From: Paludibacter sp. | Lineage (GTDB): Bacteria > Bacteroidota > Bacteroidia > Bacteroidales > Paludibacteraceae | Assembly: GCA_031292575.1 (NCBI GenBank) | Contig: JARLGX010000005.1 | Coordinates: 124,001-188,000 of the forward strand | Length of the DNA: 64,000 nt | Direction of reading: 5' to 3' | In this document: positions 17,127 to 43,306 of the stretch, piece by piece | How positions within the stretch are numbered: the stretch's first letter is position 1 | Layout: the number at the start of each line of letters is the position of its first letter | Translations under genes and position numbers: made by a program | Notes under the pieces: generated by a model | What the model saw: only the letters and a program-made list of their open reading frames with translations | Told to the model about the DNA's origin: nothing | Database searches by the model: none

Positions 17127-20100
17127 ATGAAAAAGTATAAATTATTCTTCATTTGTATTTTGTTTACTTTGGCAGCAAATCAAATGCCGGCTCAGAACAA
17201 AATTCATTATAGCGGCACAGTACTTTCCAATCCCGCTTACCACGACGGACAGCTATCGCCGGTAATAGGTGTGCACAATATTCAGGTTATGAGGGCTAAC
17301 CGGGAGCATCCCGATGCTTCAAACTGCAATGGCTGGACGTACAATCATCAACCAATGCTGTCTTATTGGAACGGGAAATTTTACCTGGAATATTTAAGTG
17401 ACGAGGTGGGAGAAAGCGTTCCGCCTTCACAAACTTTCTTGCAAACTTCCGCTGATGGATATCACTGGACGAATCCACAGACTTTATTTCCCGAATACAA
17501 AGTTCCCGATGGATATACCAAACCCGAACACCCGGGTGTTTCAAAAAACCTGATAGCCGTTATGCATCAACGCGTTGGATTTTATGTTTCCAAGTCAGGC
17601 AAATTGATTGCAACGGGATATTACGGTGTGGCATTAGACAAAAAAGATGACCCGAACGATGGAAACGGAATAGGACGAGTAGTACGTGAGATTAAAAAAG
17701 ACGGCAAATTTGGACCAATTTATTTTATTCATTACAACCATGCTTTCAATGAAAAAAATACCGATTATCCCTATTTTACCAAAAGCACGGATAAAGAGTT
17801 TAAATTAGCTTGCCAGGAAATTTTAGACAATCCGCTCTACATGATGCAGTGGGTGGAAGAGTCAGATCGTGGTGACAAAATTATCCCATTAAACAAAGAA
17901 TATAAAGCATTTAATTATTATCATTTACCCGATGGGAAAATTGCCTGCCTTTGGAAATTCGCTCTGACTTCCACCAGCGACGACGGCGGCAAAACATGGG
18001 CGCAACCGGTGGAACGTGCTAAAGGTTTTGTAACCAGCAATGCCAAAATCTGGGGTCAACGCCTCACGGATGGAAGTTATGCCACCGTTTACAATCCTTC
18101 GGAATACCGCTGGCCACTGGCCATTTCCACCTCAGCCGACGGGTTGAATTATACCACGCTGAATCTTGTTCATGGCGAAATCACCCCCATGCGTTACGGT
18201 GGAAACTATAAGTCTTACGGTCCGCAATATACCCGTGGCATTCAGGAAGGAAACGGTACACCGCCGGATAAAGACCTGTGGGTAACATACAGCATGAACA
18301 AAGAAGATATGTGGGTTTCGCGCATTCCTGTTCCGGTAAGAATAAATGCAACAGCTCAGGCTAATGATAATTTTGAGAAAAACACTCAAATCTCAGAACT
18401 AACCGACTGGAACATTTATTCTCCACTTTGGGCACCCGTTTCGTTAGAAAAAAAGGATGGAATCAATTGGCTTACACTCTCGGATAAAGATCCATTTGAT
18501 TTTGCCAAAGTTGTCAGGAAAATTCCGGCTACAAAAGAGCTGAAAGTTTCATTCGACATGTTGGCAGATCAAAACAATAAAGGAATTTTCCGCATTGAAT
18601 TTATAGATAATAAAGGGATTGCCTGTTCCCGGTTGGAACTTACCAACGCTGGAGAATTCCGTGCAAAAGGTGGTTCAAGGTTTTCGAACATGATGAAATA
18701 CGAAGCCGAGAAAATTTATCACGTAGAAGCAAAACTTTCGGTAGCCAACCGCAGCATCACTGTTTCAGTTAACGGAAAACAAGTAGGACTTCGCATGTTT
18801 TATGCGCCGGTTCCAAGTATCGAACGGATCGCTTTCAGCACGGGCGAAACAAACGAATTCCCAACTCCCGAAACACCTGCCGACCAAGATTACGACCTGC
18901 CGAATGCAGGCGGACAAGACTCATTGGCTGTTTTCCGTATTGCCAATTTTAAAAGTGAATCGTTAGACAACGATGCTTCCGCTTCTTTCCTTAAATTCGC
19001 CAACTTTAAACATTACGTGGATTATTTCAACGGAATGGAAGATGAAAATATTGTAACTGCCATACCAAACTCGCAGGTAAGTGAATGGATGGAAAAGAAT
19101 ATCCCATTGTTTGAATGTCCGCAACAGAATTTCGAAGAAATGTTTTATTATCGCTGGTGGACATTGCGCAAGCACATTGAAAATACGCCGGTTGGGTACG
19201 CCATGACAGAGTTTTTGGTACATCGCAATTATGCTGATCAATACAATTTAATTTCGAGTGCCTTGGGTCACCACATCTATGAAAGCCGCTGGTTACGCGA
19301 TACAACGTATATGAATCAGGCCATCCGTACTTGGTATCGTGGCAACAATGGTGCTCCAATGAAAAAAATGATGAATTTCAGTTCGTGGAATATCGATGCA
19401 CTTTTCAACCGTTTTTTGGTAACCGGAGATAAAACATATTTACTTGGCTTACTTAAAGACATGGAAGGCGAATATTCCCGTTGGGAAAACACACACCTCC
19501 TGAAAAGCGGACTTTACTGGCAAGGCGATGTTCAGGACGGCATGGAAGAAACCATCAGTGGCGGACGCCATAAACAATTTGCACGCCCAACCATCAACAG
19601 TTACATGTATGGAAATGCCAAAGCTTTGTCAATCATCGAATCGTTGGCAGGAAATGCAGAAGCTTCAAAAAAATATGCTCTCAAAGCAGACACATTGAAA
19701 ATGCTGATTGAAAATAAACTTTGGGATAAAAAATATAATTTCTTCGAAACACTGCGGAAGGATACATTGGCAAATGTGCGCGAAGCAGTTGGCTATTTAC
19801 CCTGGTATTTCAATATGCCTGATGCGGCAAAATATGACAGTGCATGGACCCAGGTTGCCGACGAAAAAGGCTTCTCGGCTCCTTACGGGCTTACAACTGC
19901 CGAACGACGCAGTCCGTTTTTCCGCACGCATGGTGTAGGAAAATGTGAATGGGATGGTGCAGTGTGGCCGTTTGCAACTACACAGACATTGACTGCAATG
20001 GCCAACTTCATGAACAATTATCCGCAAAAAGTAACGAACGACAGTGTGTATTTCAGCCAGTTGGAAAAATTAGTTCAATCGCAATACCACCGAGGGCTTC

Positions 20101-20453
20101 CATACGTGGGCGAATACCTCGACGAAGTGACGGGCTATTGGCTCAAAGGAGACCAGGAACGAAGCCGGTACTACAATCACTCCACTTTCAACGATTTAAT
20201 TATTACCGGTTTGATTGGATTACGTCCCCGAATGGACAACACGCTTGAAATAAACCCACTTCTGCCGAAAGGAAAATGGGATTGGTTTTGCTTAGACAAC
20301 GTTCGTTATCACAATCATAACCTGAGCATTGTGTGGGATAAAGATGGTAGCCGTTATCATGTTGGAAAAGGTTTACGTATATTTGTCGATGGAAAAGAAG
20401 TAGGACATGCAGACACACTTACAAAAGTGGTTTGTAGCGATGTCTTGAAATAA
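17127..20453 (+). CDS. GH143-GH142 bifunctional RG-II enzyme
   Basis: A 1108-residue secreted protein (signal peptide to about 22). Residues ~30-420 form a beta-propeller-like domain with sialidase-like SDDGGKTW near 285, then a LamG-like jelly roll (~430-620), then an (alpha/alpha)6 domain (~640-1108) with GRHKQFARPTINSYMYGNAKAL and CEWDGAVWPFATTQ. Length and architecture match BT1020 of B. thetaiotaomicron, whose N-terminal GH143 releases 2-keto-3-deoxy-lyxo-heptulosaric acid (DHA) and whose C-terminal GH142 removes beta-L-arabinofuranose. Together they dismantle RG-II side chain D. This is the strongest single marker that the locus targets RG-II. It is six bases from the next gene, in one operon. 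Confidence 0.88.
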   Translation: MKKYKLFFICILFTLAANQMPAQNKIHYSGTVLSNPAYHDGQLSPVIGVHNIQVMRANREHPDASNCNGWTYNHQPMLSYWNGKFYLEYLSDEVGESVPPSQTFLQTSADGYHWTNPQTLFPEYKVPDGYTKPEHPGVSKNLIAVMHQRVGFYVSKSGKLIATGYYGVALDKKDDPNDGNGIGRVVREIKKDGKFGPIYFIHYNHAFNEKNTDYPYFTKSTDKEFKLACQEILDNPLYMMQWVEESDRGDKIIPLNKEYKAFNYYHLPDGKIACLWKFALTSTSDDGGKTWAQPVERAKGFVTSNAKIWGQRLTDGSYATVYNPSEYRWPLAISTSADGLNYTTLNLVHGEITPMRYGGNYKSYGPQYTRGIQEGNGTPPDKDLWVTYSMNKEDMWVSRIPVPVRINATAQANDNFEKNTQISELTDWNIYSPLWAPVSLEKKDGINWLTLSDKDPFDFAKVVRKIPATKELKVSFDMLADQNNKGIFRIEFIDNKGIACSRLELTNAGEFRAKGGSRFSNMMKYEAEKIYHVEAKLSVANRSITVSVNGKQVGLRMFYAPVPSIERIAFSTGETNEFPTPETPADQDYDLPNAGGQDSLAVFRIANFKSESLDNDASASFLKFANFKHYVDYFNGMEDENIVTAIPNSQVSEWMEKNIPLFECPQQNFEEMFYYRWWTLRKHIENTPVGYAMTEFLVHRNYADQYNLISSALGHHIYESRWLRDTTYMNQAIRTWYRGNNGAPMKKMMNFSSWNIDALFNRFLVTGDKTYLLGLLKDMEGEYSRWENTHLLKSGLYWQGDVQDGMEETISGGRHKQFARPTINSYMYGNAKALSIIESLAGNAEASKKYALKADTLKMLIENKLWDKKYNFFETLRKDTLANVREAVGYLPWYFNMPDAAKYDSAWTQVADEKGFSAPYGLTTAERRSPFFRTHGVGKCEWDGAVWPFATTQTLTAMANFMNNYPQKVTNDSVYFSQLEKLVQSQYHRGLPYVGEYLDEVTGYWLKGDQERSRYYNHSTFNDLIITGLIGLRPRMDNTLEINPLLPKGKWDWFCLDNVRYHNHNLSIVWDKDGSRYHVGKGLRIFVDGKEVGHADTLTKVVCSDVLK

Positions 20454-20459
20454 TTACAC

Positions 20460-23237
20460 ATGAAAAAACATTTTTTCTTACTATTCCTTCTGTGTTTCTC
20501 AATCGCCTCACAAGCTATTGTAATAACCGGGCTTACCTGCGAAACAGTTGAATCACCTTTGGCAGTGGCAACTCACCATCCGCGGTTCAGCTGGCAAATG
20601 ACGTCGGACGAAAACGGTGCGATGCAAACCTCCTACGAAATTGAAATTGTTTCAATGGAAAATGGAGCTCGCCAACAGGTTTGGAATTCAGGAAAAGTTG
20701 CATCAACACAAAGCCAGCTAATCAGCTATAACGGCAAGCCACTCAGCCCCGTTGTGAGATACCTTTGGCGGGTACGTGTTTGGGACGAGCAAGATAGGGT
20801 TTCGCCCTGGAGTAGCGAAAATGAATTCCGCCTTGCACCCGAACTCAAGTTTCTGAATGCAAAATGGATTGGTGCTATACGTAGTGACAGTGCACACATT
20901 CCGGCAGGAGTTCGCTTTCCAACTTCTGAAATGCGTACTCCTCAATACAACGAAATTTGGAAAAATATCAATACGCTTTCTCAAAAAAGCATTTACCTGC
21001 GAAAACCATTTTATGCTGAAAAACAAATTACAGATGCCACAGCTTATGTGTGTGGGCTGGGTCATTATGAGTTTTCATTGAATGGGGTGAAAGTTGGCGA
21101 TGCTGAATTTGCACCATTTTGGAGCGACTATGACAAAACGGTCTATTACAATACATTTAATATAACCGGTTTGCTGAAAAAGGGTGAAAACGTGGCCGGA
21201 ATTTTGCTTGGCAATGGTTTTTATAACCAACAGGGTGGACGTTACAGCAAGCTGAAAGTTTCGTTTGGCGCTCCTACGCTATTTATCAAAATGATTATCA
21301 ATTATTCAGATGGAACTTCGCAAGAAATCATCTCCGATAAAACGTGGAAATACTCCCTGAGTCCGATTACGTTCAACAGCATTTATGGTGGAGAAGATTA
21401 TGATGCCCGGTTAGAACAAAAGGGGTGGAATATGCTCGGATTTAATGATCAGGACTGGAAACCGGTTGTTTTACAAGATGCCCCGAAAGGCAAACTCACT
21501 CCGCAATTGGCAGCTCCGGTAAAAATAATGGAGTATTACAGCGTTAAATCAAGGGAAAAACTGACTGCCGCCGAATGCGACAGCGCATCACTAAAAACAA
21601 AAAGAAAAATTGATCCTTCAGCTTTTGTCCTTGACATGGGACAGAATCTGGCAGGCTTTCCCGAAATAACCGTTCGAGGTAAAAAAGGCGATAAGATTAC
21701 ACTTGTGGTAGCTGAAGCTTTAACGCCCGAAGGCGCAACAAACCAAAATCAAACCGGCCGTCAGCATTATTACCAATATACGCTGAGAGGCGAAGGCGAT
21801 GAAACCTGGCATCCACAGTTTGCATACTATGGTTTCCGGTACATCCAGGTGGAAGGAGCCGTGATGAAAGGCGATAAAAATCCGAAGAAACTTCCATTAT
21901 TAAAAAATATAAAATCTTGCTTTGTCTATAATTCGGCAACGCCAACATCCACGTTCGAAAGTTCAAACGACATTTTCAACAAAGCACACATTCTAATACA
22001 AAAAGCTGTTGAAAGCAACATGCAGGCTATTTTCACTGATTGTCCGCATCGTGAGAAACTGGGCTGGCTCGAAGAAGTTCACCTCAACGGACCAGGCTTG
22101 ATGTACAATTTCAATCTGGCTGCATTTTTGCCAAAAATCATGCAGGATATGGCCGATGCACAACTTCCAAATGGTATTGTGCCAACCATTGCTCCGCTAT
22201 ACAATATTTTTGGAAACGATAAGGGTTTTGACGAATTTGGCGACTCACCCGAATGGGGAAGCACGTTGAATATCATGCCATGGATGTATTTTGATTTTTA
22301 CGGCGATTCCACATTGATTGTAAATTACTACCAAAACATGCGTCGGTATGTCGATTACCTGACAACGCGTGCCAACAATCATATTTTAGCTTACGGACTC
22401 GGCGACTGGTACGATTATGGAAATTTCCGTGCGGGTTTTTCGCGCAATACGCCCTTACCGTTGGTAGCAACTGATTATTATTACTACGACCTGACGTTAT
22501 TGGTAAAAGCGGCCAAAATGGTAGGTAATAAATTTGACGAAACTTACTATCAGGAGTTAGCTGAAAGAGTTCGTAGGGCAATTAATACCATGTATTTCAA
22601 TACCCAAACCAACCAATACGGCACAGGAAGCCAAACTGCGAATGCCATGGCCGTTTACATGAATATTGTCGACAGGGAAAATCGTCAGGCAGTGCTCAAT
22701 AATCTGGTGAAAGACATCAAAGCACATGGCAACCGCCTTACAACCGGCGATATTGGTAACCGGTATTTATTCCAAACACTGGCAACAAACGGTCTGAATG
22801 ATCTGATGTATACGATGCAAAATCATTACGATGCACCGGGTTATGGGTTCCAGTTGAAATTTGGTGCCACTACGCTCACCGAGCAATGGGATCCTCGCAT
22901 GGGTTCATCCTGGAATCACTTTATGATGGGCCAGATTGACGAATGGTTTTTTGGCTCTTTGGCAGGAATCCAGACTAAAACAACTGCACCCGGATTTCAG
23001 CAGTTGGTTATTCGCCCTGAAGTTGTAGGTGATTTAAAGTTTGTAAGATCATCGTACGAAACCCTTTATGGAAAAGTGTCGGTAGATTGGAAGCGCGATG
23101 GAGATAATTTCACGTTGAAAGTATCGATTCCCGTAAATTGCACGGCCGATGTTTATTTGCCGGGAGAAAAAGAGCCGAAAAGAGTGAAAAGCGGAAATTA
23201 TGCATTTTCGGAAATTCTAAAACAGAACAACAATTAA
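20460..23237 (+). CDS. GH78 alpha-L-rhamnosidase, periplasmic
   Basis: A 925-residue secreted GH78 (signal peptide MKKHFFLLFLLCFSIASQA). An N-terminal fibronectin-like domain (ITGLTCETVESPLAVATHHP) and a carbohydrate-binding beta-sandwich (around 170-330) precede the barrel. The catalytic acid motif reads DCPHREKLGWLEE near residue 527, and a C-terminal sandwich follows. GH78 hydrolyses terminal alpha-L-rhamnose; RG-II offers rhamnose on several chains. It is six bases downstream of the GH143-GH142 gene, and the next gene begins eight bases after its stop, so this is one transcription unit. No T9SS tail, so periplasmic. Confidence 0.92.
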   Translation: MKKHFFLLFLLCFSIASQAIVITGLTCETVESPLAVATHHPRFSWQMTSDENGAMQTSYEIEIVSMENGARQQVWNSGKVASTQSQLISYNGKPLSPVVRYLWRVRVWDEQDRVSPWSSENEFRLAPELKFLNAKWIGAIRSDSAHIPAGVRFPTSEMRTPQYNEIWKNINTLSQKSIYLRKPFYAEKQITDATAYVCGLGHYEFSLNGVKVGDAEFAPFWSDYDKTVYYNTFNITGLLKKGENVAGILLGNGFYNQQGGRYSKLKVSFGAPTLFIKMIINYSDGTSQEIISDKTWKYSLSPITFNSIYGGEDYDARLEQKGWNMLGFNDQDWKPVVLQDAPKGKLTPQLAAPVKIMEYYSVKSREKLTAAECDSASLKTKRKIDPSAFVLDMGQNLAGFPEITVRGKKGDKITLVVAEALTPEGATNQNQTGRQHYYQYTLRGEGDETWHPQFAYYGFRYIQVEGAVMKGDKNPKKLPLLKNIKSCFVYNSATPTSTFESSNDIFNKAHILIQKAVESNMQAIFTDCPHREKLGWLEEVHLNGPGLMYNFNLAAFLPKIMQDMADAQLPNGIVPTIAPLYNIFGNDKGFDEFGDSPEWGSTLNIMPWMYFDFYGDSTLIVNYYQNMRRYVDYLTTRANNHILAYGLGDWYDYGNFRAGFSRNTPLPLVATDYYYYDLTLLVKAAKMVGNKFDETYYQELAERVRRAINTMYFNTQTNQYGTGSQTANAMAVYMNIVDRENRQAVLNNLVKDIKAHGNRLTTGDIGNRYLFQTLATNGLNDLMYTMQNHYDAPGYGFQLKFGATTLTEQWDPRMGSSWNHFMMGQIDEWFFGSLAGIQTKTTAPGFQQLVIRPEVVGDLKFVRSSYETLYGKVSVDWKRDGDNFTLKVSIPVNCTADVYLPGEKEPKRVKSGNYAFSEILKQNNN

Positions 23238-23245
23238 TAACATAT

Positions 23246-24583
23246 ATGAAACGAGCATTTATCATTTTAGTCTCATTATTACAAATCAGTATTTTATCAT
23301 TACATGCCGAGCGCATTGATATGCTTCAGGCAGGAGCAAATCCTGATGGAAAAAAGCTAAATACAATTCTGATTAACAACACCATCAATAAACTGAATGC
23401 CAATGGTGGTGGAACATTATTCTTCCCCGCAGGAAAGTATCTGACCGGAGCCATCAAGTTGAAAAGCAATATCACCATCGAATTAGAAGCCGGTGCAACA
23501 CTTTTGTTTTCCGATAATTTCGACGATTACCTTCCTTTTGTAGAAATGCGACACGAAGGAATTATGATGAAAAGTTTTTCACCGCTCATTTATGCAGTCG
23601 ATGCCGAGAACATTACCATCAAAGGCGAAGGCAAAATTGACGGACAAGGCAAAAAATGGTGGGACGAATTTTTCAGAGTAGCTGCTGATGCAGATAAAAA
23701 TGGGAAACACGATATTAATAAATACCAACCCATGTGGGACAAAGCCAACGATGTAAAAGCATTGTACGCCGAAACCAACCAGGATTATGTTTCGTCCATG
23801 CAACGGCGCTTCTTCCGTCCGCCGTTCATTCAACCCATGCGTTGTAAAAATGTACGGATTGAAGGAATTACCATTGTAAACTCACCGTTTTGGACTGTCA
23901 ATCCAGAGTTTTGCGAAAACGTAACAGTCGATGGTGTTACTATAATTAATCCCCTTTCGCCCAACACTGATGGCATTGATCCCGAATCGTGCCGCTATGT
24001 GCACATTTCCAACTGCCATATTTCGGTGGGCGACGATTGCATCACGCTCAAGAGCGGTCGTGATTTGCAGGCACGTAAACTAAATACTCCCGACGAAAAC
24101 ATTACCATCACCAATTGTACCATGTTGGCCGGTCATGGAGGTGTGGTTATTGGCAGTGAAATGAGTGGAGGAGTGAAAAAAGTGGTTATCAGCAATTGTG
24201 TTTTCGACGGAACTGACCGTGGCATCAGGATAAAATCAACGCGTGGACGTGGTGGAATGGTTGAAGATATACAGGCTGATAATATTGTCATGCGAAATAT
24301 AAAGGAAGAAGCCATTGTGCTCGATCTGAATTACAGCAAAATGCCTGCTGAACCGCTAAGCGAACGTACTCCAATTTTCAGAAATATCAATATCAACAAT
24401 GTTACGGCTTCAAATGTGTTGATCCCCATCCGGATTAACGGACTTGAAGAGTCGCCAATAACCAATGTTACGCTGACGAATGTCAATATTCTGAACAGCA
24501 AACAAAAATCTACTTTCACCAATTGCAAAGACATAAAAATGACAGATGTTTACGTAAACGGAGAAAAGGTAGGAGTAAAATGA
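23246..24583 (+). CDS. GH28 polygalacturonase-like enzyme
   Basis: ATG 23246 is chosen because it begins a signal peptide (MKRAFIILVSLLQISILSLHA) and follows the GH78 stop; the longer frame from 23138 only overlaps GH78. The 445-residue protein has the beta-helix of GH28 with all signature blocks: NTDGID near 239, DDC near 262, GHGGV near 295 and RIK near 327. These carry the catalytic aspartates and substrate-binding His/Arg/Lys. It would hydrolyse the alpha-1,4-galacturonan backbone, probably exo-acting as in periplasmic Bacteroides relatives (inference). Confidence 0.92.
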   Translation: MKRAFIILVSLLQISILSLHAERIDMLQAGANPDGKKLNTILINNTINKLNANGGGTLFFPAGKYLTGAIKLKSNITIELEAGATLLFSDNFDDYLPFVEMRHEGIMMKSFSPLIYAVDAENITIKGEGKIDGQGKKWWDEFFRVAADADKNGKHDINKYQPMWDKANDVKALYAETNQDYVSSMQRRFFRPPFIQPMRCKNVRIEGITIVNSPFWTVNPEFCENVTVDGVTIINPLSPNTDGIDPESCRYVHISNCHISVGDDCITLKSGRDLQARKLNTPDENITITNCTMLAGHGGVVIGSEMSGGVKKVVISNCVFDGTDRGIRIKSTRGRGGMVEDIQADNIVMRNIKEEAIVLDLNYSKMPAEPLSERTPIFRNININNVTASNVLIPIRINGLEESPITNVTLTNVNILNSKQKSTFTNCKDIKMTDVYVNGEKVGVK

Positions 24584-24661: not shown

Positions 24662-26644
24662 ATGAAAAAGAACTTATTAATTATTTTATTAGCGGGAGTA
24701 TTCGTTACAAATGCCTTCTCCCAGTCTTACGAGACTCAGTTTGCCAAACCACTCGGGCAGGTATTGCAGGAAATTGGCACGCGTTTCAATGTAAAATTAA
24801 AATACAATGTTGATACTGCCGGATTGGTAGTTACGTACGCCGACTTCCGCATTCGTCCTTATTCGGTGGAAGAATCATTGACCAATGTTCTTGCTATCTT
24901 TGATTATAAATTTGTGAAACAGGACGATAAAACGTATAAAATCAAAGCATACGAATATCCACGCCGAACGCCTGAAGATGGAAAGAAAATGCTGACTTAC
25001 CTGAATACATTGTACTCAGATTCGGCACAATGGAATCAACGTAGCGCATGTCTGAAAAAAGAAGTGCGTGAAAAGCTTCAAATCGATCCTATATTAGCCC
25101 AACGAGTTCATGCCAAACCCATCCTTTCGAAAATTCGTAAACACGATGGCTATACCGCTCAGAACTTTGCTATGGAAACGCTACCCGGATTGTATGTCTG
25201 CGGTACCATTTATACCCCTTTGGCAAAGGGTAAACATGCGCTGATTTTATGCCCCAATGGTCATTGGCCCGAAGGGAGATATAACAAAGACGAACAAACT
25301 CGCTTTGGAACACTTGCCTGCATGGGTGCTGTGTGTGTTAGTTACGATCTTTTCGGTTGGGGAGAATCAGAATTGCAGGTTACGGCTATAGCCCATCGCA
25401 CGAGTGTTGCCGAAATCGTTCAACTGATGAATGGTTTGACCATTCTAGACTACATGATTCAGCGCAAAGACATTGATCCGGGACGAGTGGCTTCTAACGG
25501 AGGTTCAGGAGGCGGCACGCAAGTAGTTTTACTCTCGGTGCTCGACAACCGGTTTACTGCCGCATGTCCTACCGTCAGCCTTGCTTCGCATTTCGATGGT
25601 GGATGCCCCTGCGAAAGTGCCATGCCCACTACGTTATCATGTGGTGGAACCAACAACGCTGAATTAATGGCAACATTTGCACCCAAACCGCTTTGTGTCA
25701 TTTCGGATGGAGGCGATTGGACTGCTTCAGTTCCTACATTAGAATTTCCATACCTGAAAAGAATATACGGCTTTTTCAATGCTACCGATAAAGTAACCAA
25801 CGTTCATTTATTAAACGAAAAACACGACTTTGGAATAAATAAAAGAGCAGCTGTTTACAATTTCTTTATCCATACATTCGGTTTAAACAAATCGAAACTT
25901 GATGAATCGAAAGTTACTATCGAGCCGATTAAAGACATGTTGAGCTTTGGAGACAATGGCGAAAAGATGCCTGCCAATGCCATTCGTCAATACAAAGATG
26001 TAGAAAAATATTTCAATAAAAAAGCTGATTCCAAAATCAATTCGGATATAGATGCCGAAAAGCGTGCTGAAGTTTGGACCGATTCACTTAAACTGAACGA
26101 TAAAGCAAAAGAAGCCCGCGTAGAAGCAGTTATTTTTAAACATATCAAAGCCGTACGCGACTGGCATAACGAACATCCTTACACAACAATTCCCGAAGGA
26201 ATTGATCCAATTACCGGCAATCCGTTAAACAAAATCCAGCGTGAAGTCATAGCCAATTCAGCTAAACCAAAATCGATCCACGAAGCACTGATGAACGGAC
26301 TTCGCAAAGACTTGACCGAAGAACAGGTTGAAAAGATATTAGACAAATATACCATTGGTAAAGTGGCCTTTACCATGAAAGGTTATGAGTCAATCGTACC
26401 AAATATCACTGCAAAAGAAAAAGAATACATCCTCGGACAACTAAAACTTGCACGCGAACGAGCAGTGGATTTCAAAAGTATGAAAGACATTTCGGCAATT
26501 TTTGAAATATATAAAAACAATTGCGAGAAATACCTGAATGACAATGGCCGCAACTGGCATCAAATGTACAAGGATTTTGTAACTAAAATCATTGCCGAAA
26601 AGGCAGCCAAGAAAAAAGCGGCAGCATCTACTAATTCAAAGTAA
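24662..26644 (+). CDS. CE19-like pectin methylesterase with STN and DUF3826 domains
   Basis: A 660-residue secreted protein with three parts. Residues ~28-95 (GQVLQEIGTRFNVKLKYNV onward) resemble the STN domain of secretins and TonB receptors. Residues ~105-430 are an alpha/beta-hydrolase with nucleophile elbow NGGSGGG (Ser282) and catalytic-type His388 in NEKHDF. Residues ~460-650 are a helical DUF3826 domain. The hydrolase resembles BT1017 of the B. thetaiotaomicron RG-II locus, founder of pectin methylesterase family CE19. It would demethylate the galacturonan backbone of RG-II oligosaccharides in the periplasm. The STN fusion is unusual. It is last in the enzyme operon and followed by a strong terminator. 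Confidence 0.8.
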   Translation: MKKNLLIILLAGVFVTNAFSQSYETQFAKPLGQVLQEIGTRFNVKLKYNVDTAGLVVTYADFRIRPYSVEESLTNVLAIFDYKFVKQDDKTYKIKAYEYPRRTPEDGKKMLTYLNTLYSDSAQWNQRSACLKKEVREKLQIDPILAQRVHAKPILSKIRKHDGYTAQNFAMETLPGLYVCGTIYTPLAKGKHALILCPNGHWPEGRYNKDEQTRFGTLACMGAVCVSYDLFGWGESELQVTAIAHRTSVAEIVQLMNGLTILDYMIQRKDIDPGRVASNGGSGGGTQVVLLSVLDNRFTAACPTVSLASHFDGGCPCESAMPTTLSCGGTNNAELMATFAPKPLCVISDGGDWTASVPTLEFPYLKRIYGFFNATDKVTNVHLLNEKHDFGINKRAAVYNFFIHTFGLNKSKLDESKVTIEPIKDMLSFGDNGEKMPANAIRQYKDVEKYFNKKADSKINSDIDAEKRAEVWTDSLKLNDKAKEARVEAVIFKHIKAVRDWHNEHPYTTIPEGIDPITGNPLNKIQREVIANSAKPKSIHEALMNGLRKDLTEEQVEKILDKYTIGKVAFTMKGYESIVPNITAKEKEYILGQLKLARERAVDFKSMKDISAIFEIYKNNCEKYLNDNGRNWHQMYKDFVTKIIAEKAAKKKAAASTNSK

Positions 26645-30287: not shown

Positions 30288-30374
30288 AGTCTGAATTAAA
30301 AATCAGAATACTGAAAAATTAGGAAAATGACGAAACAAACTAAAATAAATTAACTAACGCTTTAAACACAAAAC

Positions 30375-31796: not shown

Positions 31797-31800
31797 ACCT

Positions 31801-31832
31801 TTGCCGGGGTGCAAAGCCTTGTGCCCCGGCAA
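31801..31832 (+). terminator. GC-rich hairpin after the isomerase gene
   Basis: TTGCCGGGG (31801-31809) pairs with CCCCGGCAA (31824-31832). No T-run follows, so it may stabilise the upstream mRNA or attenuate read-through into the transporter gene rather than fully terminate. Confidence 0.6.
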
Positions 31833-31850
31833 TATTTAAATCTAATTCAC

Positions 31851-32858: not shown

Positions 32859-32955
32859 AGTCAACTGTATACTGGAAAATATAACATTTATTTTAAATTA
32901 AAAACAGCTACATCAAAGTCTCCTTCAATAGATTTAGATGTAGTTTTTATAGTGT

Positions 32956-33807: not shown

Positions 33808-33887
33808 ATAGAAGAAAAAAATTTATTACACCCCCATATTGGAACAACGATCGGCCTATGAGGGCACAGACTTTTAAAATTAATTGC

Positions 33888-33895
33888 TATCTTTG
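33888..33895 (+). promoter_or_regulatory. Candidate -7 box upstream of ribB
   Basis: TATCTTTG matches the Bacteroidota -7 consensus TAnnTTTG and is 77 bases before ATG 33973. No convincing -33 TTTG was found. It suggests ribB and the regulator can be transcribed separately from the upstream cluster. Confidence 0.4.
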
Positions 33896-33972
33896 CAGCT
33901 AAATTAAAAAGAAGGCGTTCTGAAAGTTTTCATTTTAAAAATGCCTGAAAATGAGCAATAAATTATAATTAC

Positions 33973-34593: not shown

Positions 34594-34598
34594 AAGTT

Positions 34599-35366
34599 AT
34601 GCTTCAGAATCAACGCCGTGATAAAATTCTTGAACTCATCCGCGAGGATGGACATGCCAAAGTATTAGACCTGAGCCGAATTTTCAAAGTTACCGAAGTC
34701 ACTATTCGTCAGGATTTGGAATACCTTGAGAAAGAGAGTTTTATTATTCGTGAGCATGGTGGGGCTTATCTGAAGAATATTGACTTGAACGTTCGTAATT
34801 TCAGTCTGCAAAATCAGGAAAATATCAACGAGAAAATGATGATTGCCCACAAAGCAGTTGAATTTATTCACGATGGCGAAGCAATAATTCTTGATTCAGG
34901 TTCTACAACAACTGAAATTGCCAAACTTCTCACGGGCTACAACAATCTGACAGTCATTACAAACGCTTTGAATATAGCATTAATTTTAGGTGCTCAGGCC
35001 GGTATTAATGTTGTTGTCACAGGAGGAGAGTTTAAAGCCCCTACACTTTCACTCACAGGTCAAAAAGCGGCCGATTTTTTCCAAAATCTGCATGTTGACA
35101 AACTTTTTTTAGCCACCGCAGGTATCGCACTCAAATCGGGACTTACTTATCCCGGAATCAGCGATATTTGTGTAAAACGTGCAATGATTGAATCGGCTAA
35201 CGAAATTTATCTGGTTGCCGATTCATCCAAGATAGGAAAAAATGCCTTTGCCAGTCTTGGAGCTTTATCGCTTATTAATTATCTGATTACCGACTCCAAA
35301 ATAAAACCGGAGGACATCGAGTGGTTGAAAACATATGATGTTCAGTTTGTTATAGCTGATGAATAA
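34599..35366 (+). CDS. DeoR/GlpR-family transcriptional regulator
   Basis: A 255-residue repressor-type regulator. Residues 1-60 form the DeoR winged helix (RRDKILELIREDGHAKVLDLS then VTEVTIRQDLEYLEKESFI). The C-terminal domain contains ILDSGSTTTEIAKLL near 98, the phosphosugar-binding loop shared with ribose-phosphate-isomerase-like sensors. Such proteins usually repress a sugar operon until a phosphorylated intermediate binds. The likely targets are the transketolase/kinase/isomerase genes and possibly neighbouring glycosidase operons (inference). It is the last gene before a perfect hairpin terminator. Confidence 0.9.
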   Translation: MLQNQRRDKILELIREDGHAKVLDLSRIFKVTEVTIRQDLEYLEKESFIIREHGGAYLKNIDLNVRNFSLQNQENINEKMMIAHKAVEFIHDGEAIILDSGSTTTEIAKLLTGYNNLTVITNALNIALILGAQAGINVVVTGGEFKAPTLSLTGQKAADFFQNLHVDKLFLATAGIALKSGLTYPGISDICVKRAMIESANEIYLVADSSKIGKNAFASLGALSLINYLITDSKIKPEDIEWLKTYDVQFVIADE

Positions 35367-35509: not shown

Positions 35510-37963
35510 ATGAAATATAAAATCAAGAAAACACACCTTTTAATTTTGCTGATAGTTTATTGCTTCCAATCATTATCAGCTCAAAAAAACGAGTATAAAC
35601 TCTGGTACAATAAACCCGCACAAGTCTGGACTGAAGCTTTACCGTTGGGTAATGGAAGGTTGGGAGCAATGGTTTTTGGAAACCCTGCCGCGGAACAAAT
35701 CCAACTGAATGAAGCAACTATCTGGGCGGGGAAACCAAACAACAATGCCAATCCCGATGCATTGGAGAATATTCCAAAGGTTCGTCAGCTTGTTTTTGCA
35801 GGAAAATATTTAGAAGCCCAAACACTTGCCACCGAAAAAGTTATGTCGCAAACCAATTCGGGAATGCCTTACCAGCCTTTCGGGGATTTACGCATCTCTT
35901 TCCCCGGACATACAAGATACACGGATTATTACCGCGACTTAAACCTCGATTCGGCAAGAGCCACGGTTCGGTACAAAGTGGATGGGGTTACGTATAATCG
36001 CGAGATTTTCACCTCATTTACCGACCAGGTTGTAATTATCAGACTCACTGCTTCGAAAAAAAATAAAATCACGTTTAATGCCGTTCTCACTTCACCCCAT
36101 CAGGACGTGATGATAGCTTCGGATGGAAATTGTGTAACCCTCGACGGTGTTTCGTCGTGGCACGAAGGATTGAAAGGGAAAGTGAAATTCGATGGAAGAC
36201 TGACGGCAAAAACCGAAGGAGGAACGTTTACCTGCAAAGATGGCGTACTATCCGTTGAAAATGCCAACGAAGCAACTCTGTATGTTTCCATCGCCACCAA
36301 TTTCAATAACTACAAGGATATAGATGGAAATGAAAAAGAACGGGCCAAAAATTATCTCGACAAGGCACTGACACACACCTATCGGGAAGCAAAAATTGCG
36401 CACACAGCATTTTTCAGGAAATACATGGATCGCGTTTCGTTGAATCTGGGCAAAAATACGTCGAAAGAAACAACGGACATGCGTGTGCAGAACTTTGCCA
36501 AAACAAACGATGCCAATTTGGTAGCAACTTATTTCAATTTTGGGCGGTACCTGCTGATTTGCTCTTCACAACCGGGCGGACAGGCGGCTAACCTGCAAGG
36601 TATCTGGAACGATAAACTTTTGCCTGCCTGGGATAGTAAATACACTACCAACATTAATGTGGAAATGAATTACTGGCCTGCTGAAGTCACCAATTTGAGC
36701 GAAATGTATCAGCCGTTACTGCAACTCACCAAAGAGGTGAGCGAAACAGGCAAAGATGCAGCCAAGATCATGTATGGAGTTGACGGTTGGGTGCTGCATC
36801 ACAACACGGACATCTGGCGTATAACCGGAGCCGTTGACAAAGCGCCATCGGGCATGTGGCCCAGCGGCGGAGCCTGGCTTTGCCGCATGATGTGGGAACA
36901 TTACCTCTACACCGGCGATAGAGAATTCCTTAAGTCAGTTTATCCGATTATGAAAGGATCGGCCCAATTTTTCGATAACATCATGGTAAAAGAGCCTGTT
37001 CATAACTGGTTGGTGGTTTGCCCGAGCAACTCGCCCGAAAACACACATGCCGGAAGCGACAACAAATCCACCACAGCGGGTGGTGTAACCATGGACAATG
37101 AACTGATTTCGAGTCTTTGGGGCATAATTATAAAGAGTTCAAAAATTCTGAATACCGATGCAGACTTCGCCGCTCATTTACAGGACAGAATGAAAGAAAT
37201 GGCGCCATTTCAGATTGGTCGATGGGGTCAATTGCAGGAATGGATGTTCGATTGGGACAATCCCGACGATACACACCGCCACGTTTCACACCTTTGGGGC
37301 TTGTTCCCCGGTAACCAGATTTCGCCATACCGCACACCCGAATTGCTCGATGCTGCAAAAACTTCACTCATTCATCGTGGCGACGAATCCACCGGTTGGA
37401 GCATGGGTTGGAAAGTTTGCCTTTGGGCGCGCCTACTCGATGGCGACCATGCCTACAAACTCATTACCGACCAACTTTCCATTGTGCGCAACGAACCAAA
37501 ACACGGCGGAACATATCCAAACCTGTTTGATGCGCATCCGCCTTTTCAAATCGACGGAAACTTTGGTTGCACAGCCGGAATTGCCGAAATGTTGATGCAA
37601 AGCTACGATGGGTTCATTTACCTGCTGCCTGCTTTGCCTACCGTTTGGAGAAACGGTGAGATAAAAGGATTAGTGGCTCGCGGTGGGTTTGTGTTGGATT
37701 TAAAATGGAAAAACGGCAAGATAGAAACTGTAAAGATATTCTCAAGGATTGGTGGAAATTGCCGGTTGCGTTCACTGACTCCTTTAACCGGAGCAGGACT
37801 GACCGAAGCAACAGGTCAAAACTCAAATCCATTATACGGTGTGCCACCTATTCCAAAACCATTGATTAATGAAAATGCCAAACTTAATCCAGTGAATTTG
37901 AAAAAAACATATCTTTACGATTTGAAAACAGCAAAAGGAGAAACTTATATAATAAACCCCTAG
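35510..37963 (+). CDS. GH95 alpha-L-fucosidase / alpha-L-galactosidase
   Basis: An 817-residue secreted enzyme (signal peptide ending near QSLSAQ). GH95 hallmarks: [22 protein letters not shown] near residue 30, [33 protein letters not shown] near 380 in the barrel, and [18 protein letters not shown] near 690. GH95 inverts alpha-1,2-L-fucosides or alpha-L-galactosides; the RG-II locus of B. thetaiotaomicron uses a GH95 to remove terminal L-galactose from side chain A. The stop codon TAG and the last two residues (Asn-Pro) are supplied by a genomic repeat element (37954-37977). Predicted periplasmic. Confidence 0.92.
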
Positions 37964-38077
37964 CCCCTAAAGGTGGACTAAATTGCTATAACTTGCTACA
38001 AAATATATTCAATGAATACAAAGACATCTTTCAAACACAAAACTAACTCAAAAGCCCACTTCAGGGGGTTGGGGGTT
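37954..38077. repeat. Inverted repeat pair spanning the GH95 stop and GH140 signal peptide
   Basis: The left arm (37954-37977, ACCCCTAGCCCCTAAAGG core) includes the GH95 stop codon. The right arm (38054-38077, TTCAGGGGGTTGGGGGTTC core) is inside the GH140 signal-peptide coding region. It belongs to the same family as 6973-7077 and 11540-11666, more diverged. Confidence 0.75.
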
Positions 38078-39472
38078 CTTCTTTTCCTCATTACTTTTTC
38101 TCAATTATTTGCCGAAAAACTCCCCTGGGCAAATGGCAAATTGATGGTAAGCGAAAATCATCGCTACCTGCAATTCGAAAACGGGACTCCATTCTTTTGG
38201 CTCGGAGACACAGGTTGGTTACTGCCCGAACGGCTCGACCGCTCTGAAGCTGAATTTTACCTGGATCAATGCAGCAAAAAAGGGTTCAATGTTGTGCAGG
38301 TACAAACAATGAATGGTGCACCATCGTATAATTACTACGGACAATCATCATTGCCCGATGGGTTCGATTTCAAAAATATCAACCAAAAAGGAGTTTACGG
38401 ATATTGGGATCACATGGATTACATCATCAAAACGGCTGAAAAGAAAGGTATTTTCATCGGCATGACCTGCGTGTGGGGCGGTGAAGTAAGCAGTGGCAGA
38501 GTGACATTGAAAGATGCTCAGGCTTATGGAAAATTCCTTGGTGAACGGTATAAAAATTCACCAAACATTATCTGGTTTATTGGTGGCGATATTCGGGGCG
38601 ACGTAAAACCCGAAGTTTGGGAAGCATTTGCAACAAGCATAAAGTCTGTTGACAAAAATCATTTGATGACCTTTCATCCCCGTGGAAGAACATGTTCGGC
38701 AACATGGTTCAACAATGCTAAATGGCTTGATTTCAATATGTTCCAAAGCGGACATCGCCGCTATGGGCAGCGCAACGGTGATGGTGATTATACCATTGCC
38801 GAAAACACCGAAGAAGATAACTGGCGTTATGCAGAGAAAAGCCTAGCAATGACTCCGCTAAAACCGGTTATCGATGGAGAACCTTCATACGAGGACATTC
38901 CACAGGGATTGCACGATTTTAATGAAACCCGATGGAATGCAAATGATGTTCGTCGGTATGCCTATTGGTCGGTTTTTGCAGGTTCGTTTGGGCATACTTA
39001 CGGTCATAATTCTATCATGCAGTTTATGAAACCGGGCGTTTCAGGGTCATTTGGAGCCAAACGTTACTGGTACGATTGCCTTGAAGATCCGGGTTACAAC
39101 CAAATGAAATACCTGAAAGAATTAATGTTGGCATTCCCATTTTTTGAACGCGTGCCCGACCAAAGCATTATTGCAGGACAAAATGGTGAACGTTACGACC
39201 GTGCTATTGCCACCCGCGGAAATGATTATCTGCTGGTATATAATTATTCGGGACGACCAATGAAAATCGATTTATCCAAAATAAGTGGTGCAAAGAAAAA
39301 CTGCTGGTGGTTTAATCCTAAAAATGGAGGATTGCAGTTTATTGGCGAATTTGATGGAAATAAAATTGCAGATTTTCAAATAGATGCTGCTTATGAGTCG
39401 GGCAACGACCGGGTGCTAATTGCTGTGGATAGTACGAAAGATTATATCAAAAAAGCTCAGAATCAACTATAA
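38012..39472 (+). CDS. GH140 apiosidase-like protein (DUF4038)
   Basis: A 486-residue secreted TIM-barrel enzyme. After the signal peptide (to about 34) comes LMVSENHRYLQFENGTPFFW then LGDTGWLLPERL, the classic DUF4038 opening, and a C-terminal DUF4038-associated beta domain begins near residue 395. Candidate catalytic acids are Asp in FIGGDIRGD near 190 and Glu in IDGEPSYEDIP near 290. GH140 was founded on BT1012, which cleaves the bond between D-apiose and the galacturonan backbone of RG-II, releasing side chains A and B. Its presence next to a candidate apiose pathway is mutually supporting. The signal peptide is partly encoded by a repeat arm. Confidence 0.87.
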   Translation: MNTKTSFKHKTNSKAHFRGLGVLLFLITFSQLFAEKLPWANGKLMVSENHRYLQFENGTPFFWLGDTGWLLPERLDRSEAEFYLDQCSKKGFNVVQVQTMNGAPSYNYYGQSSLPDGFDFKNINQKGVYGYWDHMDYIIKTAEKKGIFIGMTCVWGGEVSSGRVTLKDAQAYGKFLGERYKNSPNIIWFIGGDIRGDVKPEVWEAFATSIKSVDKNHLMTFHPRGRTCSATWFNNAKWLDFNMFQSGHRRYGQRNGDGDYTIAENTEEDNWRYAEKSLAMTPLKPVIDGEPSYEDIPQGLHDFNETRWNANDVRRYAYWSVFAGSFGHTYGHNSIMQFMKPGVSGSFGAKRYWYDCLEDPGYNQMKYLKELMLAFPFFERVPDQSIIAGQNGERYDRAIATRGNDYLLVYNYSGRPMKIDLSKISGAKKNCWWFNPKNGGLQFIGEFDGNKIADFQIDAAYESGNDRVLIAVDSTKDYIKKAQNQL

Positions 39473-39577: not shown

Positions 39578-42500
39578 ATGAAATCAAAGCATTTACTTCT
39601 TATATTTTACCTGCTACAGTTGACTCTTTTTGCCAATGCAACCATTACAGTGACTGCATTGAAAACCGAAGGCATAACAAACCCACAAGGAATTGATGCC
39701 ACACAACCTCGTTTAAGCTGGAAAACGGAAGCAACATCCGAGCAAAATGTCATGCAAAATGCCTATCAGATTATCGTGGCTTCGTCCTCCTTAAAGTTGG
39801 GAAAAAACGAGGGAGATGTTTGGAATAGCGGGAAAGTTTCATCCGATGCCCAGCTATGGATTCCTTTTACCGGAAAAGCCTTGCACACAAACGCAGCTTA
39901 TTTTTGGAAAGTAAAAGTGTGGACAAACAAAGGTGAAAGTGGCTGGAGTACAATAGGCACCTGGAGTATGGGGTTGTTGAACGAAAACGACTGGAAAGCA
40001 CAATGGATTGGACTCGACAAGGCCATGCCCTGGGACAGTGAAACCACTTGGAGCCGACTTTCGGCACGTTACCTTCGAAAAGAATTTAAAGCAACAAAAT
40101 CGATAAAACGTGCCACTGTGCATATTTCCGGTTTGGGACTTTATGAATTATATATAAACGGGAAACAAATAGGAGATCAGGTATTGGCACCCTCTCCCAC
40201 CGATTACAGAAAAACTGTGTTTTATAATACTTACGATGTCACATCCTTAATTCAACAAGGGAATAATGTGGTAGGCGTTACATTGGGAAATGGACGTTTT
40301 TACACCATGCGTCAACATTATAAACCCTACAAAATAAATACATTCGGTTATCCCAAATTGCGATTCAACCTGACAATCGATTATACTGATGGCTCTTCTG
40401 AAACCGTTGGAAGCAATACATCATGGAAACTTAATCCGGATGGGCCAATACGCAGCAACAACGAATACGATGGTGAAAAATACGATGCCCGTAAAGAGTT
40501 AAAAAATTGGAATCAAACTGGTTACGACGATTCGAAATGGATGGAAGCAGAACGGGTTGGAATGCCTGACGGCACACTTCGCTCACAACCTATGGCAGGA
40601 ATGAAAATTGTAGATAGAATCACTCCGGTTTCAATCACACCGCTTGGAAGCAAATTCATTCTTGATTTGGGTCAGAATATGGCGGGATGGTTGAGGATTC
40701 ACGTGCGGGGGAATGCAGGCGATTCGGTAAAACTGCGCTTTGCAGAAACCCTGCAAAAAGACGGGGAACTTTACGTGGAAAACCTTCGCGATGCCCGTGC
40801 CACCGATCTTTACATTATGAAAGGCGATGCAAATGGTGAAGATTGGGCTCCCCTGTTTGTGTACCACGGTTTCAGGTATGTTGAAATCAGTGGATTGAAT
40901 TACACACCCGATAAAACTGATTTTACAGGAGAAGTAGTGAGCGACGAAATGGAAAATCTGGGAACACTGGTGACTTCGGATGATGTACTGAACCAAATTC
41001 TGAAAAATGCCTGGTGGGGAATTCGAAGCGATTACAAGGGAATGCCCGTTGATTGTCCGCAACGCAACGAACGCCAGCCCTGGCTTGGTGATCGCTCAAT
41101 GGGTTGTTGGGGTGAAAGTTATTTGTTCGACAACGATGCCATGTATGCTAAATGGGGCGAAGATATAACCGATTCGCAACGAAAAGATGGTTGCATCCCT
41201 GATGTTGCACCTGCTTTCTGGAATTATTACAGCGACAATGTAACCTGGCCTTCGACTCTGCCAATGCTCTGCGACATGACTTACACTCAGTTCGGAAATA
41301 CAAAACCATTGATTGAAAATTATACAACTATGAAAAAATGGATGGAACATATACGCAATAGTTATATGACCACCAAGTACATTGTTACACGTGATGAATA
41401 TGGCGATTGGTGTGTACCTCCCGAAAATTTAAAGTTGATCCACAGTCGCGACCCGAAACGGCAAACAGATGGAGCTTTGATTTCAACGGCTTACTATTAT
41501 AAAATGCTTCAACTGATGATCCGTTTCGCCGATGTTCAGGGTTTGAAAGATGATTCAAAAACGTACGCCGCTTTGGCCGGAAAAGTAAAAGATGGATTCA
41601 ACCAGACATTCTTCCGTACTGATTCATTGTTTTATGGGAATAATACAGCCACTGCAAATTTACTTCCGCTAGCTTTTGGAATGATTCCAAAGCAATTTGA
41701 AGATACTATTTGCAAACAAATCATTAAAACAGTGGTGGCAAATAACACACCTCAGATTACTACCGGAATGATCGGGATACAATGGTTATTGCGCGAACTT
41801 AGTAAAATGGGACGCTCGGATGTGGCTTATGCCATTGCCGCGAACACTAAATATCCTTCGTGGGGATATATGGTAGACAATGGTGCCACCACTATTTGGG
41901 AACTTTGGAACGGCAACACTGCCAGTCCGAAAATGAATTCAGGTAATCACGTCATGTTGCTTGGCGATTTGCTTCCATGGTGCTATGAAAACCTGGGCGG
42001 GATCAAATCGGACTACACCAAAACCGCTTTCAAGCATATTATTCTGAAACCAAATTTTGACATTCCCGATCTTGAACACATTGATGCATCATATATCACC
42101 CCTTATGGCAAGGTAGTGAGTAAATGGAAAAAAACATTGATGCATCTCGATTGGAAAGTTTCAATTCCGGTCAATACAACTGCCGAAGTTCATCTGCCAA
42201 ACGGAAAAACAGAACAAATTGGGTCAGGCTCTCATTCTTACAGTGTGGATATTCCTCAGAAAAAAGGGATTGTTGTAAACCAGTTTTTGTACGAAAAAGC
42301 CTCGTTTCCACAATGTCATGCTTCAACTATAGCCGAAACAAACAATGGTGATTTGGTGGCAGCATTTTTTGGTGGAGCACGCGAAGGCGCACCCGATGTT
42401 TGCATCTGGGTTTGCAGGAAAGAAAAAGGCTCGGATAAATGGACTGCTCCTGAAAAAGCTGCAGATGGCGTGATATCCGCCACCGAACGAAAAGCTTGCT

Positions 42501-43306
42501 GGAATCCTGTTTTGTATCAAATGCCGGAAGGAAAACTATATTTGTTTTATAAAGTGGGGAAAAAAGTTGCCGACTGGACAGGCTACCTGAAAACCAGCGA
42601 CGATGGAGGTAAAACCTGGAGCAAAGCTCTTCAACTGCCCGATGGTTACCTCGGTCCGGTTAAAAACAAACCGGTGGAGGTATCTGGCAAAATTATATCT
42701 CCATCCAGTACCGAAACCGGAGGTTGGAAGGTTCATTTTGAAATTGCTGAAGATGGAGGGAAAAAGATTCATTATGTTGGTCCGATAAAGGCTTCCGAGG
42801 CTGTTCTTAGCCAGGATCAAGTTAAATCGGCTAATGCTTCGGATGATCAGGAAGGCGGCGACAATTCAAAACAAAACACTATTCAGGCCATTCAGCCAAG
42901 CATATTAAAATACAAAGACGGTCGTCTGCAGATTCTTTGCCGAACACGAAACGGACGACTTGCCACCTCGTGGAGTTCAGATAAAGGAGAAACCTGGACT
43001 CCGCTTGTGTTGACTAACCTGCCAAACAACAACTCTGGAACTGATGCTGTCACGCTTCAGGATGGCCGACAGTTATTGGTTTACAATGCTGTTGCCACAA
43101 AACCCGGTGAAAAGAAAGGACCACGGACCCCGTTAAATATTGCAGTTTCAAACGATGGAATAAACTGGAAAATGGTACTGACGCTCGAAGATTCACCCAT
43201 CTCTCAGTACTCCTACCCAAGCATCATTCAGGGAAAAGATGGACGAATTCATGTGGTTTATACCTGGCGACGGGAGAAGATAAAATATATGGAGATAAAA
43301 TTATAG
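39578..43306 (+). CDS. GH78 rhamnosidase fused to a sialidase-like BNR propeller
   Basis: A 1242-residue secreted two-domain protein (signal peptide MKSKHLLLIFYLLQLTLFANA). Residues ~22-890 are a full GH78 with N-terminal fibronectin-like and lectin-like sandwiches and catalytic motif DCPQRNERQPWLGD near 490. Residues ~893-1242 are a BNR/Asp-box propeller with SDDGGKTW near 1007, SSDKGETW near 1135, and SFPQCHASTIAETNNGDLVA at its start. The canonical sialidase FRIP motif is absent (FPQCHA instead), so it belongs to the uncharacterised sialidase-family group. Coupling a rhamnosidase to a sialidase fold would suit a rhamnosyl-ketodeoxy-sugar such as RG-II chain C (Rha-Kdo); this is inference. 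There is no frameshift between domains. Confidence 0.88.
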   Translation: MKSKHLLLIFYLLQLTLFANATITVTALKTEGITNPQGIDATQPRLSWKTEATSEQNVMQNAYQIIVASSSLKLGKNEGDVWNSGKVSSDAQLWIPFTGKALHTNAAYFWKVKVWTNKGESGWSTIGTWSMGLLNENDWKAQWIGLDKAMPWDSETTWSRLSARYLRKEFKATKSIKRATVHISGLGLYELYINGKQIGDQVLAPSPTDYRKTVFYNTYDVTSLIQQGNNVVGVTLGNGRFYTMRQHYKPYKINTFGYPKLRFNLTIDYTDGSSETVGSNTSWKLNPDGPIRSNNEYDGEKYDARKELKNWNQTGYDDSKWMEAERVGMPDGTLRSQPMAGMKIVDRITPVSITPLGSKFILDLGQNMAGWLRIHVRGNAGDSVKLRFAETLQKDGELYVENLRDARATDLYIMKGDANGEDWAPLFVYHGFRYVEISGLNYTPDKTDFTGEVVSDEMENLGTLVTSDDVLNQILKNAWWGIRSDYKGMPVDCPQRNERQPWLGDRSMGCWGESYLFDNDAMYAKWGEDITDSQRKDGCIPDVAPAFWNYYSDNVTWPSTLPMLCDMTYTQFGNTKPLIENYTTMKKWMEHIRNSYMTTKYIVTRDEYGDWCVPPENLKLIHSRDPKRQTDGALISTAYYYKMLQLMIRFADVQGLKDDSKTYAALAGKVKDGFNQTFFRTDSLFYGNNTATANLLPLAFGMIPKQFEDTICKQIIKTVVANNTPQITTGMIGIQWLLRELSKMGRSDVAYAIAANTKYPSWGYMVDNGATTIWELWNGNTASPKMNSGNHVMLLGDLLPWCYENLGGIKSDYTKTAFKHIILKPNFDIPDLEHIDASYITPYGKVVSKWKKTLMHLDWKVSIPVNTTAEVHLPNGKTEQIGSGSHSYSVDIPQKKGIVVNQFLYEKASFPQCHASTIAETNNGDLVAAFFGGAREGAPDVCIWVCRKEKGSDKWTAPEKAADGVISATERKACWNPVLYQMPEGKLYLFYKVGKKVADWTGYLKTSDDGGKTWSKALQLPDGYLGPVKNKPVEVSGKIISPSSTETGGWKVHFEIAEDGGKKIHYVGPIKASEAVLSQDQVKSANASDDQEGGDNSKQNTIQAIQPSILKYKDGRLQILCRTRNGRLATSWSSDKGETWTPLVLTNLPNNNSGTDAVTLQDGRQLLVYNAVATKPGEKKGPRTPLNIAVSNDGINWKMVLTLEDSPISQYSYPSIIQGKDGRIHVVYTWRREKIKYMEIKL

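Follow-up and report, generated by a model that had tools for sequence, protein, structure and literature searches.

What does a protein act on when a rhamnosidase runs on, in one frame, into a sialidase-like propeller that lacks the FRIP motif? The question is raised by a gene at 39578-43306 (+) of a 64,000-nucleotide stretch of Paludibacter sp. DNA (GenBank assembly GCA_031292575.1, contig JARLGX010000005.1, positions 124,001 to 188,000 of the forward strand; hereafter the window). A first-pass annotation had proposed either sequential action on a rhamnose-capped ketodeoxy sugar, such as the rhamnose-3-deoxy-D-manno-oct-2-ulosonic acid (Rha-Kdo) unit of chain C of rhamnogalacturonan II (RG-II), or a rhamnose-specific binding propeller. 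RG-II is a pectin domain essential to plants. The comparisons of sequence, fold and locus described below make it likely that the fusion is a secreted, exo-acting enzyme for RG-II chain C, in which the domain of glycoside hydrolase (GH) family 78 would remove Rha and the propeller Kdo; its cellular location is probably periplasmic.

A GH78-propeller fusion that recurs across genomes

The gene is a single unbroken frame from the ATG at 39578 to the stop at 43306, encoding 1,242 residues with a hydrophobic N-terminus that by eye resembles a signal peptide. Pfam scans, which covered mainly the larger open reading frames (ORFs) of the window, placed a complete set of five GH78 domains within the first 883 residues: Ig_Rha78A_N (residues 25-135; 39650..39982, +), Bac_rhamnosid_N (174-345; 40097..40612, +), the concanavalin-like Bac_rhamnosid (358-454; 40649..40939, +), the six-hairpin catalytic domain Bac_rhamnosid6H (460-806; 40955..41995, +) and Bac_rhamnosid_C (813-883; 42014..42226, +). 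The nearest solved structure to this half is 6i60 (E 8e-169), with whose DERMGW and LWERWEK motifs the sequences NERQPW (497-502) and IWELWNG (773-779) align; we take the glutamates of these two motifs to be the acid and base of GH78, as in SaRha78A. By its domain set and both expected glutamates, this half is a GH78 member with a predicted rhamnosidase function.

The remaining residues, 905-1242 (42290..43303, +), form the propeller as delimited by BNR_2, alignments and a structural model. The BNR_2 profile is matched over all 277 positions at residues 924-1226 (E 9.1e-85, 284.8 bits), FPQCHAS lies at residues 910-916, and Asp-box-like motifs begin at 1007 (SDDGGKTW), 1133 (SSDKGETW) and, in degenerate form, 1191 (SNDGINW), which bears out the Asp boxes of the first-pass annotation. 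The source genome contains the propeller once (E <= 0.001); a second, weak and short BNR_2 match belongs to the BT_1020-like protein described below.

The fusion is real and not an assembly error, as the same fusion is present in many independent assemblies. In 20 of 36 relatives retrieved from titled genome records the propeller shares its frame with GH78; of the others, 10 stand alone, a contig end cuts 2, 1 is fused to FG-GAP repeats and 3 are remote. L014 and L030 begin at a contig end. Over the whole collection, 61 of 105 distinct propeller domains are fused in frame to GH78, including those of Bacteroides graminisolvens DSM 19988 (L016), Bacteroides sp. 51 (L035) and Paraflavitalea pollutisoli (L021). 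The domain is present in 38 of 119 genomes of the genus of genome G165, where frames of 1,261-1,418 residues hold 40 of its 41 copies and a frame of 372 holds the other. Two loci (L027, of which L072 is a copy, and L074) have the two parts as separate adjacent genes, a stand-alone GH78 first and a stand-alone propeller next, and these GH78 proteins are 52-53% identical to the GH78 part of the window fusion and 32% to the other GH78. Some stand-alone propellers have, by eye, a signal-peptide-like start. The idea that the domain junction is an assembly product thus fails.

Further architectures were seen at the C-terminal side of the propeller. GH78-propeller-AP_endonuc_2 frames are present in L075, L076 and, cut, in L023, and propeller-AP_endonuc_2 frames in L077 and L083. 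AP_endonuc_2 is a sugar isomerase-like domain, and a stand-alone AP_endonuc_2 gene is located in the window at 59464-60381.

A sialidase fold with a conserved, altered pocket

The propeller was modelled with AlphaFold2 from a 27-row alignment (the window plus 26 of the 36 loci, the remote L037-L039 being left out), giving a mean predicted local distance difference test score of 89.8 and a predicted template modelling score of 0.88. VIA-align 2 placed residues 2-338 of the model on residues 60-398 of the Micromonospora sialidase chain 1w8o (Z 34.5, 2.2 Å over 294 residues), and the model on the Bacteroides thetaiotaomicron sialidase BTSA, 4bbw, with Z 32.6; as modelled, the propeller is a six-bladed sialidase fold. 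By sequence, no solved structure of the propeller subgroup was found: against the family profile, PDB chains reach no more than 51 bits and genome members mostly 300-570 bits. The literature searched gave no residues of an RG-II Kdo hydrolase.

The catalytic set of sialidases consists of a clamp of three arginines (Arg1-Arg3) that holds the substrate carboxylate, an acid/base aspartate, a nucleophilic tyrosine and a glutamate that activates this tyrosine. The nucleophile role of the tyrosine is also stated in PDB titles among the fold matches. We compared the propeller with six sialidase-type proteins that carry RIPG or RVPA and come from four genomes in the G165 genus. In hhalign (probability 96.7, E 3.8e-10), the FRIP arginine is matched by His914 and the second and third sialidase arginines by Arg1122 and Arg1183, with a gap near the glutamate. 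Three MAFFT modes applied to 33 sequences are concordant and in all six sialidase-type rows set His914 opposite Arg, Glu936 opposite Asp, Gln1106 opposite Glu and Tyr1213 opposite Tyr; Arg1122 and Arg1183 are aligned to Arg2 and Arg3, the latter gapped in one of the six rows in one of the three modes. Alignments to solved sialidases likewise have Gln1106 opposite Glu, and Tyr1213 opposite the second Tyr of the YSYS-type motif. The absence of the FRIP arginine, as first annotated, is therefore upheld, with His914 in its place.

These positions are hardly variable. In 106 rows, comprising the 105 distinct domains and the window again under its own trimming, with domains below 250 bits left out, Gln1106, Arg1122, Arg1183 and Tyr1213 are each identical in all 106; His914 is His in 104 with 2 gapped, and Glu936 is Glu in 105 with 1 gapped. 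Thus Arg2, Arg3 and the tyrosine position of sialidases are preserved, and those of Arg1 and the tyrosine-activating glutamate are occupied by other residues; at the acid/base position a carboxylate is retained as Glu in place of Asp. Asp940, near the pocket, is Asp in 103 rows and Glu in 2, with 1 gap, and may be an alternative acid/base position to Glu936. The pocket proposed from these alignments consists of His914, Glu936, Gln1106, Arg1122, Arg1183 and Tyr1213, and the notion of a propeller with no conserved pocket does not hold. Compared with canonical GH33 sialidases (1w8o, 4bbw), the window propeller shares the fold, the Asp boxes, Arg2, Arg3 and the tyrosine, but has His914 for the FRIP Arg, Glu936 for the acid/base Asp and Gln1106 for the base Glu.

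The fusion lies in an RG-II locus and, by gene order, corresponds to BT_1013

Directly upstream of the fusion in the window is a GH140 apiosidase gene (38012..39472, +), whose product is a close relative of PDB 3kzs/5msy (E 7.2e-248), a chain that we take to be BT_1012. BT1012 is described as an apiosidase, which is consistent with that identification (PMC7939467). A GH95 glycosidase gene (35510..37963, +; Pfam) precedes it. Upstream sequence of 5 kb or longer is available for 29 fused loci; among these, GH140 is found within 2.5 kb in 20, and GH95 too (within 6.5 kb) in 18.

The GH140 protein of genome G449 is 100% identical to 3kzs/5msy over 445 residues, and at its locus (L142) the order on one strand is GH95, GH88, GH140 and GH78-propeller, with the fusion directly after GH140. 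Past ORFs of 332 and 270 residues, on the other strand, are genes for a DUF3826 protein, a GH28, a second GH78 and a BT_1020-like protein. In published numbering, BT1017 has a DUF3826 domain, BT1018 is a galacturonidase (both PMC7939467), BT_1019 is a GH78 (PMC6828813) and BT_1020 is a GH142 beta-L-arabinofuranosidase (PMC7263609). As the L142 gene order fits these numbers, the window ORF is, on gene order and sequence, the counterpart of B. thetaiotaomicron BT_1013, a gene name that we infer from that order. The GH78-BNR_2 layout of the window ORF is the same in G449, with 62% identity in the GH78 part and 59% in the propeller.

The same four genes follow one another in the same order at 17127-26644 of the window. 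These encode a DUF3826 protein (24662..26644, +), by architecture and position the counterpart of the RG-II methylesterase BT1017 (PMC7939467); a GH28 protein (23138..24583, +), which shares 71% identity with the L142 GH28 that occupies the BT1018 position; a second GH78 (20460..23237, +), by position the counterpart of BT_1019; and a BT_1020-like two-part enzyme (17127..20453, +) with a PF24067 propeller and an MGH1-like glycosidase domain. The system is thus not new, its counterpart being in the known RG-II locus of B. thetaiotaomicron, and the enzyme also seems to be present in gut Bacteroides.

Chain C of RG-II carries Kdo (PMC12168206) and it is chain C, not chain D, that terminates in rhamnose, in alpha-1,5 linkage (PMC12282258). 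B. thetaiotaomicron cleaves 21 of the 22 linkages of RG-II (PMC7939467), a GH33 Kdo hydrolase is among the enzymes that RG-II breakdown needs (PMC11214529), and Kdo hydrolase is listed as a GH33 activity (PMC9120202). G449 (71% complete), searched with BNR_3 only, contains two matches and no others: a 549-residue protein, of the same size as those that bear FRIP, and the fusion. In genome G393, whose GH140 is 99% identical to the solved 3kzs/5msy chain, BNR_2 matched the fusion, a FRIP protein of 549 residues and the BT_1020-like protein, with one further match below the cut-off. Near GH140, the only sialidase-type propellers found in G449 (BNR_3) and G393 (BNR_2 and BNR_3) are the fusion and the BT_1020-like protein. 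With a GH33 Kdo hydrolase needed for RG-II (PMC11214529) and the fusion the only such propeller there besides the BT_1020-like one, the earlier assignment to an "uncharacterised BNR group" was too strong.

Co-occurrence with the BT_1020 propeller family is specific to the fusion clade

The tree of the 105 domains, rooted at its midpoint, separates 78 domains from 27 (printed supports 0.881 and 0.995). The larger clade contains all 61 fusions and nine of the ten stand-alone copies with RG-II-type genes nearby; in the sister clade of 27 none is fused to GH78, and as a group it is not tied to RG-II.

Across 393 genomes, sampled evenly from a larger order and scored for no more than five or six candidates each, PF24067, the propeller family of BT_1020, is present in 20. 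It is found in 17 of 21 fusion-clade genomes vs 3 of the 372 others (Fisher p 2.6e-23, without correction for relatedness), and in 2 of the 24 genomes with another strong propeller (p 0.35). Since these other propellers do not co-occur with PF24067, the sister clade acts as an internal control; the p-values are descriptive, because Fisher tests ignore relatedness. In these counts the G011 fragment, which has no position in the tree, is one of the 24 and is taken as outside the fusion clade; the second copies that G282, G432, G437 and G463 contain were not given positions of their own.

A proposed route through the Rha-Kdo side chain

The RG-II locus, the clade-specific co-occurrence with PF24067 and the conserved ketosidase-like pocket together favour the Rha-Kdo unit of chain C, which, of the two proposals of the first-pass annotation, is the best reading of the sequence. 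The GH78 domain would first take off the terminal alpha-1,5-rhamnose, and the propeller would then hydrolyse the exposed alpha-Kdo from the galacturonic acid backbone. His914 and the two arginines may grip the C1 carboxylate of Kdo, with Glu936 protonating the leaving group and either Tyr1213 or water attacking C2. The replacement of the Tyr-Glu pair by Tyr-Gln would imply a different base or the lack of an activated tyrosine. We tentatively suggest, as a possibility somewhat short of even, that the propeller represents a mechanistically distinct subfamily of ulosonic-acid hydrolases (a His-Arg-Arg clamp, Glu for Asp and Tyr-Gln for Tyr-Glu), with the sister clade acting on a further 2-keto-3-deoxy sugar.

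By analogy, the design would parallel that of BT_1020, in which the GH142 arabinofuranosidase is joined to a hydrolase of 3-deoxy-D-lyxo-heptulosaric acid (Dha) for the arabinofuranose-Dha unit of chain D; we take the part of BT_1020 outside GH142 to be a GH143 Dha hydrolase. Both are RG-II enzymes with a propeller and a glycosidase barrel, and a close relative of BT_1020 is present at the window locus. BT_1020 differs in having its propeller first, not last, in the family of that propeller (PF24067) and in the side chain.

Several observations weigh against the Rha-Kdo assignment. With Arg1 and the base Glu replaced, classical sialidase chemistry cannot run unchanged. The hhalign alignment alone sets the sialidase tyrosine on Tyr1211, two residues away from Tyr1213; Tyr1211 is Tyr in 90 of the 106 rows, Phe in 15 and Leu in 1. 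Two GH78 proteins are present at the locus, both candidates for trimming chain C, and in 9 of the 29 fused loci the upstream 2.5 kb contain no GH140. PF24067 is missing from four fusion-clade genomes, and the fusion clade from three genomes that have PF24067. A literature search for BT1013 together with thetaiotaomicron gave no paper.

The remaining points of this kind concern an argument from neighbours. Some stand-alone propellers of both clades adjoin a sodium/solute symporter (SSF) gene and a gene of the dihydrodipicolinate synthase (DHDPS) family. DHDPS-family enzymes make or break 2-oxo acids, and such neighbours would weakly suit a route in which a ketodeoxy sugar is released, imported and cleaved. 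However, a DHDPS-family ORF is present in the flanks of a minority, 13 of 76 loci (two on the opposite strand; the survey counts L072, the copy of L027), only two fused loci (L011 and L023) have one, and tblastn with two DHDPS neighbours as queries found no DHDPS-family gene in the window. The aldolase argument is weak, as none of the six DHDPS neighbours tested reaches the NCBIfam equivalog cut-off. At order level, 6 of 43 loci have such a neighbour vs 0.24-0.9 expected, from a rough background of an assumed 1.3-5 genes per 3.9 Mb genome and without correction for relatedness.

In the sister clade, L086, L087, L089 and L093 share a cassette of propeller, SSF symporter, DHDPS-family gene and a protein of ~430 residues, which is without a Pfam match as checked in L087; the cassette possibly serves the release, import and cleavage of a ulosonic acid. 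At L092:1037-3613, an SSF symporter and a sister-clade propeller lie in one frame.

Other readings of the propeller

That the propeller acts on Dha of chain D, or on both Dha and Kdo, is improbable. The locus is the same, the two sugar acids are of one class and BNR_2 matches a short part of the BT_1020-like protein too; however, that protein, which is presumably the Dha hydrolase of the window locus, is already present there, and its propeller family occurs in 17 of the 21 fusion-clade genomes. The fusion partner, moreover, is a rhamnosidase, and rhamnose ends chain C, not chain D (PMC12282258).

No better placed is a non-catalytic propeller that binds only RG-II or rhamnose. The replacement of the sialidase Arg1 and base Glu would suit such a role, but the tyrosine, the two arginines and Glu936 are identical in every ungapped row of the 106, and stand-alone copies occur, some of them with the signal-peptide-like start mentioned above. 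RG-II also needs a GH33 Kdo hydrolase (PMC11214529), for which BNR_3 in G449, and BNR_2 and BNR_3 in G393, found no other candidate near GH140. The rhamnose-specific binding propeller of the first-pass annotation is thus unlikely, because the ketosidase pocket is nearly invariant.

A true sialidase, acting on N-acetylneuraminic acid (Neu5Ac) or Kdn, would agree with the modelled sialidase fold but is very improbable for a protein that is without the FRIP Arg and the base Glu, lies in a plant-polysaccharide locus and co-occurs with the BT_1020 family. An assembly or annotation artefact, with nothing found in its favour and 61 of 105 distinct domains fused (L016, L035 and L021 among them), has next to no probability.

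Other genes of the window

The window also holds a GH127, a GH141-type protein, a pectinesterase, a pectate-lyase-like protein, a SusC/SusD-like pair and DUF3826 proteins. A 562-residue protein encoded at 46855-48543 (-) has no Pfam match; its relatives are present in 12 of the 76 loci, at up to 91% identity, and phmmer matches it to the pectate lyase PDB 9buj (E 1.8e-41). It is probably, by sequence, a pectate-lyase relative that Pfam misses.

Inside the RG-II region, 26885-35366 contains a transketolase (two ORFs), an FGGY kinase, a Fucose_iso_C protein, a RhaT/ureide-permease-like ORF, a periplasmic-binding-type protein, a DHBP synthase and a DeoR regulator, genes that might form a pathway for a rare RG-II sugar. 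At 2102-4519 (-), two adjacent URO-D-family genes, the second a weak match, lie next to a major facilitator superfamily (MFS) transporter gene and a GH78-like gene.

Implications

The proposed function connects a single enzyme with the Rha-Kdo side chain of RG-II. It also suggests, as a rule of design, that every ulosonic-acid side chain is served by a two-domain enzyme of its own. Should the altered catalytic set be confirmed, the propeller would be a sialidase fold adapted to Kdo without the classical base, and a His, a Glu and a Gln at the Arg, Asp and Glu positions would be a signature that separates such enzymes from sialidases.

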